DNA from: Lachnospiraceae bacterium
Lineage (GTDB): Bacteria > Bacillota > Clostridia > Lachnospirales > Lachnospiraceae
Direction of reading: 5' to 3'
Assembly (NCBI GenBank): GCA_017480565.1
Contig: JAFVAL010000005.1
Coordinates: forward strand, 25,052-89,051
Length of the DNA: 64,000 nt
The notes under the pieces are model-generated. The model worked only from the letters and a program-made list of their open reading frames with translations. It was not told where the DNA came from and did no database searches. Numbering within the stretch: the stretch's first letter is position 1; each line of letters begins with the position of its first letter. Below, piece after piece: positions 57,267 to 59,841 of this stretch. Made by a program: the position numbers and the translations under genes.

Positions 57267-58550
57267 TTATTTCACGGCTGCAAATCCTTTTTCGAGATCT
57301 GCAATGATATCGTCAATGTGCTCGGTTCCGATGGAGAGGCGGATCGTGTTCGGCTTGATGCCTTGATCTAACAGCTCTTCCTCGGAGAGCTGGGAATGTG
57401 TCGTAGTTGCCGGATGGATGACCAAACTCTTGACATCGGCTACATTTGCCAGAAGGGAGAAGATCTCCAATGCATCGATGAACTTATGTGCTTCTGCCTG
57501 GCCGCCCTTGATCTCAAAGGTGAAGATAGAGCCGCCGCCGTTCGGGAAATACTTCTCATAGAGCTCATGATCCGGATGATCCGGCAGGGACGGATGGTTG
57601 ACATGCTCGACCTGCGGATGATTGTTTAAGAATTCGACGACCTTCTTGGTGTTCTCTGCATGGCGATCCAGACGAAGCGAGAGCGTCTCAACGCCCTGCA
57701 GAAGCAGGAAGGCGTTAAACGGAGAGATCGCAGCGCCGGTGTCGCGAAGCAGGATTGCACGGATGTAGGTGGCAAAGGCAGCAGGGCCTGCCGCATCCAC
57801 GAAGGAAACACCGTGATAGCTCGGGTTTGCGGAAGCGATCTGCGGATAATTGCCGCTCGCCTTCCAGTCAAACTTGCCGGAATCAACGATGATACCGCCG
57901 AGGGTTGTTCCATGGCCGCCGATAAACTTCGTTGCGGAATGAACCACGATATCAGCACCGTGCTCGATCGGACGAATCAGATAAGGGGTACCGAAGGTGT
58001 TGTCGATGACGACCGGAATGCCATGCTTATGCGCGATTTCTGCGATCGCATCGATGTCCGGAATGTCAGAATTCGGATTGCCGAGCGTCTCAAGATAGAT
58101 GGCTCTCGTGTTCTCCTGAATGGCACCTTCGACCTCCTCGAGGTTGTGTGCATCCACGAAGGATGTCGTGATATTGTAGAGCGGAAGCGTGTGAGCCAGT
58201 AAGTTATAGCTGCCGCCGTAAATGGTCTTCTGAGAGACGATGTGGCCGCCGTTCGGTGCCAGCGCAAGGATCGAATAGGTGACCGCTGCCGCACCGGAAG
58301 CCAGCGCCAGAGCTGCGACGCCGCCCTCTAAGGCTGCGAGACGCTTCTCTAACACATCCTGCGTGGAGTTGGTGAGTCTTCCGTAAATGTTGCCGGGATC
58401 TTGCAGGCCGAAACGTGCTGCCGCATGTGCGGAATTGTGGAACACATACGATGTTGTCTGATAAATCGGGACAGCTCTGGAATCGGTTGCCGGGTCTGCC
58501 TGTTCCTGTCCTACGTGAAGCTGTAAGGTTTCAAATTTATAGTTAGCCAT
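57267..58550 (-). CDS. metY: O-acetylhomoserine sulfhydrylase
   Basis: 427 aa, PLP enzyme of the Cys/Met metabolism family, making homocysteine from O-acetylhomoserine and sulfide. FETLQLHVGQEQ, YGRLTNSTQDVLEKRLAALEGG and the PLP lysine in HSATKFIGGHGT are typical of MetY rather than of cystathionine enzymes. The start is the ATG at 58550 after GGAGGAAA; an in-frame ATG at 58604 would begin within the leader terminator. The mRNA leader carries a Met-rich open frame and a terminator that look like an attenuator. Confidence 0.94.
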   Translation of the reverse strand: MANYKFETLQLHVGQEQADPATDSRAVPIYQTTSYVFHNSAHAAARFGLQDPGNIYGRLTNSTQDVLEKRLAALEGGVAALALASGAAAVTYSILALAPNGGHIVSQKTIYGGSYNLLAHTLPLYNITTSFVDAHNLEEVEGAIQENTRAIYLETLGNPNSDIPDIDAIAEIAHKHGIPVVIDNTFGTPYLIRPIEHGADIVVHSATKFIGGHGTTLGGIIVDSGKFDWKASGNYPQIASANPSYHGVSFVDAAGPAAFATYIRAILLRDTGAAISPFNAFLLLQGVETLSLRLDRHAENTKKVVEFLNNHPQVEHVNHPSLPDHPDHELYEKYFPNGGGSIFTFEIKGGQAEAHKFIDALEIFSLLANVADVKSLVIHPATTTHSQLSEEELLDQGIKPNTIRLSIGTEHIDDIIADLEKGFAAVK

Positions 58551-58602: not shown

Positions 58603-58634
58603 AAAAAATGCCCGAGAGGTATCTCCCGGGCATT
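58603..58634 (-). terminator. Leader terminator (attenuator) of metY
   Basis: Minus strand: AATGCCCGGGAG (58634-58623), loop ATAC, CTCTCGGGCATT (58618-58607), then T run to 58603. A 12-bp stem with one G-T pair. It lies between the leader open frame and the metY start, so it ends leader transcripts unless disrupted. Its 5' arm is perfectly complementary over 11 nt to 58712-58702 inside the leader frame. Confidence 0.88.
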
Positions 58635-58657
58635 ATGGCAAGATTACATCGAACCTA

Positions 58658-58768
58658 TCAGATGACTTCACTGCATGCGAAATCTACCTGGCCATCTTCA
58701 TATGCCCGGGAGCGTCCCATGGACCATGCCATGTCAAACATTCGCATACACATCATAAACTTCGTCAT
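58658..58768 (-). CDS. Met-rich leader peptide of metY
   Basis: 36 codons, ATG 58768 with AAGGAG (58784-58779) 10 nt upstream, stop at 58660-58658. It begins MTKFMMCMRMFDMAWSM: seven Met among the first 17 residues, plus one Cys there. The codons just after the last Met (end of Arg19 to Ala22) carry CTCCCGGGCAT (58712-58702), exactly complementary to the 5' arm of the downstream terminator. It ends 23 nt before that arm. Too short and too Met-dense for an ordinary protein, it fits a leader peptide sensing charged Met-tRNA, with stalled ribosomes letting the antiterminator form. The regulatory role is inference. Confidence 0.75.
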   Translation of the reverse strand: MTKFMMCMRMFDMAWSMGRSRAYEDGQVDFACSEVI

Positions 58769-58828
58769 CTGTGCAGGTCTCCTTTCCCCAATTCTTCCAA
58801 AAACGAATCCTTTTGGTTCGTTGCGTCT

Positions 58829-58857
58829 ACGATACGCCTAAAAACCTACTTTGTCAA
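58829..58857 (-). promoter_or_regulatory. Promoter of metY leader transcript
   Basis: TTGACA (58857-58852), 17-bp spacer, TATCGT (58834-58829) on the minus strand; the predicted start lies about 50 nt before the leader peptide ATG. Confidence 0.7.
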
Positions 58858-58926
58858 TAGGTTAAATAAATTTTTCTGAAATTAGTTTTTGGGGCGTTTT
58901 TATTTTCCCAAAGGGCACTCCTGGGA

Positions 58927-58955: not shown

Positions 58956-58995
58956 AGGAAATGTGCAGAGGAGTTCTGCAGCCAATTGAAAAGCA

Positions 58996-59101
58996 ATCTT
59001 CAGGGCAGGGCGAAGTTCCCGACCGGCGGTATAGTCCGCGAGCCTTCGGGCCGATTTGGTGTGATTCCAAAACCGACAGTATAGTCTGGATGAGAGAAGA
59101 T
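58996..59101 (+). ncRNA. FMN riboswitch (RFN element)
   Basis: Contains the conserved RFN blocks: ATCTTCAGGGCAGGG, TTCCCGACCGGCGGTATAG, CCGCGAGCC, GGTGTGATTCC, CCGACAGTATAGTCTGGATG and the closing GAAGAT. P1 closes ATCTTC with GAAGAT. No clear terminator follows. Downstream CACCT (59139-59143) could pair with AGGTG of the ribU ribosome site (59178-59182), suggesting control of translation. FMN lowers expression of RibU in known cases. Confidence 0.96.
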
Positions 59102-59190
59102 GTGATACATGATGTGCGAAACACCGACTTGAATGTAACACCTGAAGAACGATTGTTTTTCAGAAATTGATTTAAGGAGGTGCATTTTTT

Positions 59191-59841
59191 ATGGATGCAA
59201 GAACAAAGAAAATGGTAACCCTGGCGATGATGGCCGCACTTGCGTATGTGGTGATGGTAGTGATCCGCGTGCCGGTCGTGCTCTTCTTAAAGTATGAGCC
59301 GAAGGACGTGATCATCACGATCGCGGGCTTCTTGTACGGGCCGGTTTCCTCACTGATCATCTCGATCGTTGTAGGCATTGTGGAGATGGTGACGGTCAGT
59401 GACACCGGGTGGATTGGCATGATCATGAACGTGATCTCCTCGGCGGCATTTTGCGTCACGGCAGCAGTCATTTACAAGAAAAATCATACCTTAAAAGGTG
59501 CGGTGCTCGGACTGATCTCCGGTACGGTGTTGATGACAGCCGTCATGCTTCTTTGGAATTACCTGATCACACCGATCTACATGGGGTATCCGAGAGAAGC
59601 GGTGACATCGATGCTTCTGCCGGCATTTCTGCCTTTTAACCTTGTCAAGGCAGCGCTCAATTCCGCTATCACGTTGTTGCTTTATAAGCCGGTCGTCAGC
59701 GCGCTTCGCAGATCCGGTCTCGTGGAGAAGAGTTCGGCTCAGGAAGGAAAGACGCAGCGCAATTTCGCGATGGTCGTCGGTGCGATCTTTGTGATTGCGA
59801 CCGCAGTGGTTGTGATTTTGGTGCTTTCGGGCAAGTTATAA
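59191..59841 (+). CDS. ribU: Riboflavin ECF transporter S component
   Basis: 216 aa, six membrane segments. S component of an energy-coupling-factor transporter taking up riboflavin. LAYVVMVVIRVPVVLFLKYEPKDVIITIAGFL is the RibU substrate region, with LYGPVSSLIIS following. The FMN riboswitch upstream supports the substrate. AAGGAGGTG precedes the ATG. It needs the shared EcfA/EcfT module encoded elsewhere. A barstar-like gene follows by 23 bp. Confidence 0.94.
   Translation: MDARTKKMVTLAMMAALAYVVMVVIRVPVVLFLKYEPKDVIITIAGFLYGPVSSLIISIVVGIVEMVTVSDTGWIGMIMNVISSAAFCVTAAVIYKKNHTLKGAVLGLISGTVLMTAVMLLWNYLITPIYMGYPREAVTSMLLPAFLPFNLVKAALNSAITLLLYKPVVSALRRSGLVEKSSAQEGKTQRNFAMVVGAIFVIATAVVVILVLSGKL

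Follow-up and report, generated by a model that had tools for sequence, protein, structure and literature searches.

What controls metY in the window, the whole stretch of 64,000 nucleotides of Lachnospiraceae DNA that was analysed? In Firmicutes, methionine genes are usually under S-box or T-box RNA control. Directly upstream of this gene, the initial annotation had described a short Met-rich frame followed by a terminator and had read the arrangement as a leader-peptide attenuator of the trp/his layout. We consider it highly likely that the metY leader is a translation-dependent transcription attenuator which senses how much charged Met-tRNA is available and, in the family as a whole, how much Cys-tRNA. 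This reading is supported by the rarity of its parts in shuffled sequence, homologous leaders in relatives, covariation, a fold model, a second copy in the same genome, the sulfur genes behind the leaders and the lack of a riboswitch. Reading of the leader peptide would probably let the cell sense a shortage of sulfur amino acids.

The metY leader of the window

The promoter, the ribosome site, the 36-codon frame with 7 Met in 17 codons, the 12-bp terminator and the exact 11-nt complement between frame and terminator all lie on the minus strand where they had been described (Table 1). The gene behind them is metY by a TIGR01326 match of 632 bits against a cut-off of 495. Chance was estimated on Markov-shuffled copies of the region, which preserve its dinucleotide content approximately. 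A short frame preceded by a Shine-Dalgarno sequence and holding at least 6 non-initiator Met within 16 codons appeared in 1 of 20,000 copies, and an exact 11-nt complement in 0 of 20,000. Promoter-like sites average 1.3 and terminator-like sites 0.4 per shuffled region; on their own, therefore, the promoter and terminator matches are weak. The leader frame, the terminator and the antiterminator complementarity are confirmed as real and not due to chance.

Table 1. Features of the metY leader region in the window
Feature	Position	Strand	Evidence
Inverted repeat CCTATTGACAAAGTAGG over the -35 box, probable transcription-factor operator	58845..58861	-	sequence pattern
Sigma-70-type promoter TTGACA-17-TATCGT	58829..58857	-	consensus match only, 10/12 bases
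Shine-Dalgarno AAAGGAG of the leader ORF	58779..58785	-	sequence
Leader peptide ORF, 36 codons, MTKFMMCMRMFDMAWSMGRSRAYEDGQVDFACSEVI	58658..58768	-	7 Met in codons 1-17; homologous frames in relatives
Sulfur amino-acid codon run MMCMRM (codons 5-10), with a CGA-AUG pair	58739..58756	-	sequence
Met17 codon, exactly 5 nt 5' of the antiterminator arm	58718..58720	-	matches ATG of 42/42 aligned family leaders (fixed by the selection patterns in 41/42 rows, not so in the window row)
Antiterminator 5' arm CTCCCGGGCAT, inside the leader frame	58702..58712	-	exact complement of ATGCCCGGGAG
Antiterminator inner helix, 5' side ATGGC	58691..58695	-	pairing and covariation in relatives
Antiterminator inner helix, 3' side GCCAT	58635..58639	-	pairing and covariation in relatives
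Antiterminator 3' arm ATGCCCGGGAG, also the terminator 5' arm	58623..58633	-	complementarity, covariation
Intrinsic terminator, 12-pair stem 58634-58607, U tract to 58603	58603..58634	-	-18.6 kcal/mol folded alone
Shine-Dalgarno GGAGG of metY	58563-58559	-	sequence
metY, O-acetylhomoserine aminocarboxypropyltransferase	57267..58550	-	TIGR01326, PF01053

The pairing of ATGGC with GCCAT can lengthen the antiterminator of the window beyond its 11-nt arm. The MMCMRM run is also found in the relative L012, where it stands directly 5' of SDSRA; compared with this relative, the window has an extra in-frame segment of 21 nt that adds Met and Trp codons, and its ATG is still exactly 5 nt before the arm. 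By this extra Met segment the window copy looks tuned to methionine. A scan of five leader peptides with NCBIfam and Pfam returned nothing significant. Divergent from metY, an FMN riboswitch (RF00050, 113 bits) lies at 58992-59105 on the plus strand, and behind it a small membrane-protein-like ORF at 59191-59841.

Leaders in relatives and the genes behind them

A MetY search over a one-genome-per-species collection gave at least 556 loci, the best 80 of which were retained. Sixteen of these best 80, selected manually, carry a homologous leader in which an in-frame ATG stands 5 nt before a CTCCCGGGC-like arm whose complement lies at a terminator. When the best 80 of at least 556 loci were scored without any alignment, 24 had a Shine-Dalgarno-preceded short frame with at least 4 Met/Cys in 8 codons; the reverse strand gave none in 80, and the Markov controls 0.22 per 80. 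The 24 comprise 10 of the window kind, 7 of a second kind with the peptide motif NFRfGRM (discussed below), 6 other Met/Cys-rich frames and 1 overlapping frame. Among loci with 90% identical MetY, the leader is present in L012 and L013 and none was seen in L015 and L016, an absence that counts against the attenuator reading. At the threshold used, the sole other genome of the genus gave no MetY match, and a search of 200 genomes with the ribosome-site sequence of the leader returned the window and one chance match (L009).

Of 396 family genomes searched with the arm pattern, 31 contained a match, 35 matches in all; the reversed control matched twice. By frame and peptide, 26 of the 35 (22 genomes) are leaders, and 9 were judged chance and excluded (L120-L123, L126, L132, L134, L140, L143). 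With the peptide pattern MCCRM, 19 of 392 genomes of the order yielded 21 matches, compared with 1 for the control; 14 are leaders, four of them duplicating arm-pattern loci (L175, L178, L182, L184), and 7 were excluded as chance (L164, L166, L167, L170, L172, L176, L177). The reversed-pattern controls understate chance in both searches, with 2 against 9 of 35 for the arm and 1 against 7 of 21 for MCCRM. Arm-pattern matches fall in 29 of the 280 genera searched, chance matches counted in. The exact arm pattern finds true leaders in only 22 of 396 family genomes, a further point against the attenuator reading; the leader is a real element, carried by a minority of the genomes to which these exact patterns were applied.

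Forty-two leaders were aligned on the conserved ATG, taken as position 0, and 25 of these rows came from the arm pattern, which is blind to the codons of the Met/Cys block. Cys stands at -3 in 34/42 and at -2 in 27/42 leaders, mainly as TGT (27/34 and 26/27), Met at -4 in 20/42 and at -5 in 19/42, and each of the two residues in at most 3/42 at positions -14 to -8. Downstream of the conserved ATG, Met is found at +8 in 23/42, the ATG at that place belonging to the inner helix, and Cys at +14 in 14/40. The codon that precedes the conserved ATG is CGA in 41/42, in part because the selection patterns required it. In the window this codon is TCC, and Trp/Ala stand at -2/-3 where its relatives have Cys/Cys; its copy is an outlier, which counts against the attenuator reading. 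The suggestion that Met codons are the regulatory ones has to be widened accordingly: it suits the Met-heavy window, but the block of the family uses Cys as well as Met. The comparison of orthologous leaders, which the initial annotation had listed among the possible refutations, came out in favour of the attenuator, as they keep the frame, the Met (and Cys) codons and the complementarity, with covarying arms.

A second leader, MNVYVSFSMADCMCCRMQNSRAYDVAGGARQSIVMP, was found on another contig of the window's own genome (G000:C15:57562). Its arm, CTCTCGAGCAT versus ATGCTCGGGAG, comes with a terminator and carries compensatory changes that keep the pairing. It was the peptide pattern that brought up this copy. 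When the arm was sought across the same genome with 1 mismatch allowed, there were 9 matches and, in the reversed control, 5, so that further copies could not be recognised in this way. The second leader lies upstream of HpsG, (2S)-3-sulfopropanediol dehydratase (1398 bits, cut-off 1000), which is followed in the operon (L185 1299-7311) by a glycyl-radical activase, a ThiS-family carrier, a MoeB/ThiF-like E1, a Prok-JAB protein and TusA; a sulfite-reductase-like protein, below its cut-off, is encoded there as well. A LysR-like gene is located upstream of this leader (L185 7-924), and the end of a similar-looking LysR-family protein was seen by eye upstream of metY in L014, L062, L073 and L075. 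As for metabolism, the gene run of L185 would make a route from 3-sulfopropanediol to homocysteine possible. MetY can take its sulfur from a thiocarboxylate-type carrier. For Wolinella, the accessible part of one source mentions that methionine is made by way of a protein thiocarboxylate (PMC5764234). If the carrier route holds here, both leaders of the window's genome would govern one route.

Fifteen of the 26 arm-pattern leaders lie upstream of metY; 11 lie before other genes, which counts against the attenuator reading. Among the genes found behind leaders are cysK (L125, above the NCBIfam cut-off), a MetY-like PLP enzyme (L133, PF01053), a cystathionine synthase/lyase-like enzyme (L173, under the NCBIfam cut-offs), NlpA/MetQ proteins (L130 and L144, above the Pfam cut-off), SBP_bac_3 proteins (L124, L141 and L153, each also with an NlpA domain, and L131 without it), a LysR-like gene with a weak match only (L174) and a PepT-like peptidase (L183). 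An SDR protein (L146), a GST-like protein (L151) and a protein of no family (L152) have no clear sulfur link or name and count against. MetQ (PF03180) was not found in the window's own genome. Judged by these family matches, most genes behind the leaders are sulfur amino-acid genes. Some gut Clostridia appear to place translated leader peptides with many Met and Cys codons before metY, cysK, cystathionine-type, NlpA/MetQ and SBP_bac_3 genes and, in the window's genome, before an operon for 3-sulfopropanediol dehydratase and sulfur carriers. The element may help to locate and annotate the sulfur regulons of uncultured gut bacteria.

Ribosome position and the proposed RNA switch

The claim that antiterminator and terminator exclude each other is borne out by their shared arm and by covariation in 41 loci. 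This set leaves out L135, whose peptide is identical to that of L059, and L149, where the complementary arm is visible but nearer than the lower bound (the same place as L182). The outer helix has 98.3% standard pairs, against 95.5% in shuffles with a maximum of 96.8%, and 9 double-change cells against a maximum of 5 in 500 shuffles; 24 of the 41 rows were picked for having CTCCCGGGC, which restricts the variation of this helix, and the shuffles ignore relatedness. For the inner helix ATGGC/GCCAT, whose register is the best among many offsets, standard pairs amount to 76.1% (shuffle maximum 71.7%) and double-change cells to 15 (shuffle maximum 10, relatedness again ignored), with ATGAC/GTCAT in L034 and GGAC/GTCC in L088 as compensatory examples.

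In the fold model, the ribosome was represented by a 16-nt mask that begins at the first P-site base, and the RNA 3' of it was folded. In the full fold, the antiterminator prevails in 37/41 loci with the A site at -2, in 22/41 at -1 and in 1/41 at 0; in a snapshot that ends short of the terminator 3' arm, it does so in 41/41, 41/41 and 5/41, respectively. The flip at 0 varies with the footprint: a 15-nt mask leaves the antiterminator at 0 in 40/41 loci in the snapshot, and a 13-nt mask leaves it there in 22/41 in the full fold. Thus, the Met/Cys block is placed on the antitermination side and position 0 on the edge, and the model does not separate the conserved AUG as a starvation sensor from the AUG as the site from which the arm is masked. 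Without a ribosome, 20/41 loci are mainly antiterminator and 19/41 terminator, the window belonging to the latter. For the window at equilibrium, the probability of the antiterminator at stall positions -8 to -2 is 0.01, 0.12, 0.82, 0.25, 0.05, 0.53 and 0.54, so that the terminator wins at 4 of 7, a result that counts against the attenuator reading and comes from the great strength of this terminator. In the snapshot before the terminator 3' arm, the same probability is 1.00 at all positions from -8 to -2. The second copy of the genome, at equilibrium with the ribosome at -2, leans to the terminator (0.42 vs 0.55).

On this model, a ribosome halted with its A site at least 2 codons before the conserved AUG would leave the arm free, and the antiterminator would then form first as RNA polymerase advances; a ribosome at or just past the AUG would cover the arm and let the terminator win. 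A shortage of Met (or Cys) would accordingly stall ribosomes on the codon block and switch metY on, and ribosomes with ample supply would get as far as the AUG site, either to pause or to continue, and transcription would terminate. The switch point is predicted to be this fixed (CGA-)AUG site rather than the stop codon.

That prediction separates the leader from its classical counterparts. Like the trp/his attenuators of Enterobacteria, it would let ribosome position select antiterminator or terminator, and it has the features of that kind: an ORF preceded by a ribosome-binding site, concentrated codons of the pathway, an intrinsic terminator and a covarying, mutually exclusive antiterminator. 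In the trp attenuator, a ribosome that has reached the stop codon covers the arm of the antiterminator. Here the stop codon lies at 58660-58658 and the arm ends at 58702, ~40 nt upstream, so that a ribosome at the stop, with a footprint of ~15 nt on either side, falls short of the arm and cannot mask it. The trp/his layout proposed for this locus therefore stands as regards frame, codons, terminator and exclusive antiterminator, and fails as regards masking from the stop codon. Unlike the enterobacterial His_leader (RF00514), the window leader scores 18.2 bits against a threshold of 49. As read from its sequence, the window element works like the trp/his attenuators but is a variant of that kind.

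Histidine leader-peptide attenuators are in print for Firmicutes, namely for the B. cereus group, Peptostreptococcaceae such as C. difficile and Erysipelotrichales, in the portions of the sources at hand (PMC9413887, PMC2965389). Going by those portions, they share with the metY leader a short peptide with codons of the regulated amino acid, an antiterminator and an intrinsic terminator; the metY leader differs by its Met/Cys codons, its sulfur genes, the ATG-N5-arm spacing and the near-invariant CGA. A mycobacterial study by Canestrari et al. 2020, cited in PMC13236596, reportedly concerns poly-cysteine leader peptides. For Actinobacteria, the accessible text of one source describes mycobacterial poly-cysteine leader peptides without conserved hairpins that could be terminators, and in the same text no conserved RNA structures upstream of methionine operons are reported (PMC1262725). 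As far as these leaders are described there, Cys codons upstream of sulfur genes are common to both, whereas the family of the metY leader has an explicit antiterminator and terminator, and Met codons. In open-access literature, mostly titles and abstracts and without subscription papers or preprints, no Met or Met/Cys leader-peptide attenuation in Clostridia was found. What is new relative to known attenuators, on the strength of sequence comparison, is the use of the codons of two sulfur amino acids, the fixed (CGA-)AUG site, the long distance between arm and stop codon, and a regulon of sulfur genes.

The NFRfGRM form and other possible controls

A sister form of the leader, MxxxFxxLvRxNFRfGRM, precedes 26 of the best 80 of at least 556 metY loci, mostly with 16 codons before R17. 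Its NFRfGRM pattern gave 28 matches in 26 of 393 genomes of the class and 5 control matches; 24 lie before metY, 2 before NlpA/MetQ-like genes, and 2 are chance (L099, L117). Four hybrids (L013, L017, L022, L023), which are also among the sixteen loci of the window kind, join NFR[FC]GRM with the arm and terminator, and by them the two forms are linked; outside the hybrids, few terminators were seen in the NFRfGRM form. The string NFRFGRM has no account in open-access literature, again mostly titles and abstracts and without subscription papers or preprints. Tandem leaders occur upstream of metY in L057, L065 and L079, a Met/Cys-rich one coming first (MNKLYSENLNMAMWMVMYMCAMYMRF... in L065) and one of the NFRfGRM form nearer to metY.

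These leaders raise another explanation, in which not codon supply alone but the nascent peptide, on meeting a metabolite such as methionine or S-adenosylmethionine, would stop the ribosome at the fixed R(CGA)-M(AUG). In the form that bears a terminator, the held ribosome would cover the antiterminator arm and metY would be off; the window copy would have arisen from such a form by degeneration or by a change to codon sensing. In 52 leaders of the NFRfGRM form, F5 (39/52), L8 (42/52) and R10 (48/52) are retained, none of them fixed by selection, which speaks for an arrest; N12, F/Y13, R14, R17 and M18 are constant partly by construction, as the selection patterns fixed them. Arg10 and Arg14 vary over all six Arg codons, yet Arg17 is CGA in 51/52; half of the rows had CGAATG fixed, and the other 26, where any CGN was allowed and AGR was not, have CGA in 25/26. 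The nearly regular distance from start to R17, the frame that stops directly after R-M in 12/52, the four hybrids, the 5-nt spacing from ATG to arm even in the pattern-free window and the flip of the fold model at the ATG site all favour the same idea. Conservation at the level of amino acids at a fixed distance from the stall site is seen in the NFRfGRM form, where the motif was partly used for selection, and not in the window leader. In fact, NFRfGRM is absent from the window and from most leaders of its kind, whose Met/Cys codons make sense as codons, and with a footprint one nucleotide shorter, the snapshot flip at the AUG is lost. For the metY leader of the window, we hold arrest to be a doubtful explanation; the NFRfGRM form itself may be an unrecognised arrest peptide, and it may be analogous to arrest peptides such as TnaC, SecM and plant CGS1/MTO1 in its conserved residues, fixed distance and fixed site.

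Sequestration of the metY Shine-Dalgarno sequence by the RNA after CGAATG was considered for the NFRfGRM form and rejected as a general mechanism, the gain in accessibility on stalling being small. For 47 of the 52 loci (the 4 hybrids and L067, with a spacing >200 nt, were omitted), the mean gain was 0.06 against 0.00 in shuffles, with 8/47 above 0.2 and a Wilcoxon p of 0.04 for gain and 0.35 for accessibility.

Perhaps the clostridial sulfur genes are under one homologous superfamily of leader peptides built around R(CGA)-M(AUG), where the NFRfGRM branch would be a new arrest sensor for a sulfur metabolite and the window branch would have replaced the arrest sequence by Met/Cys codons and retained the site itself. 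We offer this tentatively, as a possibility that we would not call probable. If true, such a superfamily would show the interconversion of an arrest peptide and a codon-sensing attenuator. The CGA-AUG site and the NFRfGRM branch together make a directly testable candidate for a new arrest peptide.

Control of metY could also lie mainly with a DNA-binding regulator at a CCTATTGAC-N4-TAGG operator, the leader adding little or nothing. Among the best 80 of at least 556 metY genes, 35 have a CCTA-N9-TAGG repeat no more than 500 nt upstream, where shuffled sequence yields 0.3; 31 of the 35 repeats begin with CCTATTGAC. In the window, the repeat (58861-58845) overlaps the -35 box, and in several loci, e.g. 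L018, L033, L035, L036 and L038, it is seen without the leader. A regulator acting there would leave the conserved frame, the Met/Cys codons, the covarying arms and the terminator unexplained, and we judge it very unlikely as the main control. The repeat is also present at 11 of the 16 metY loci of the window kind, so that operator and leader appear as coexisting layers.

A riboswitch or T-box with a merely apparent leader frame is extremely improbable: one SAM-I and six T-box matches (three above cut-off) do occur in the window's own genome, but on other contigs, and what the leaders conserve is a residue class (Met/Cys), a start and a Shine-Dalgarno sequence. The initial annotation had seen neither S-box nor T-box in the leader, and the Rfam searches agree, with no family at the gathering threshold in the window leader (best sub-threshold NsiR1, 21 bits), no match to RF00162 (SAM-I) or RF00230 (T-box), and no riboswitch or T-box at the leaders in the metY upstream regions of 20 relatives. 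Three Rfam matches in these relatives, to tmRNA, c-di-GMP-I and tRNA, lie away from the metY leaders. The only SAM-I match of the window's genome, of 75 bits, is located at G000:C74:36012-36114 (L001).
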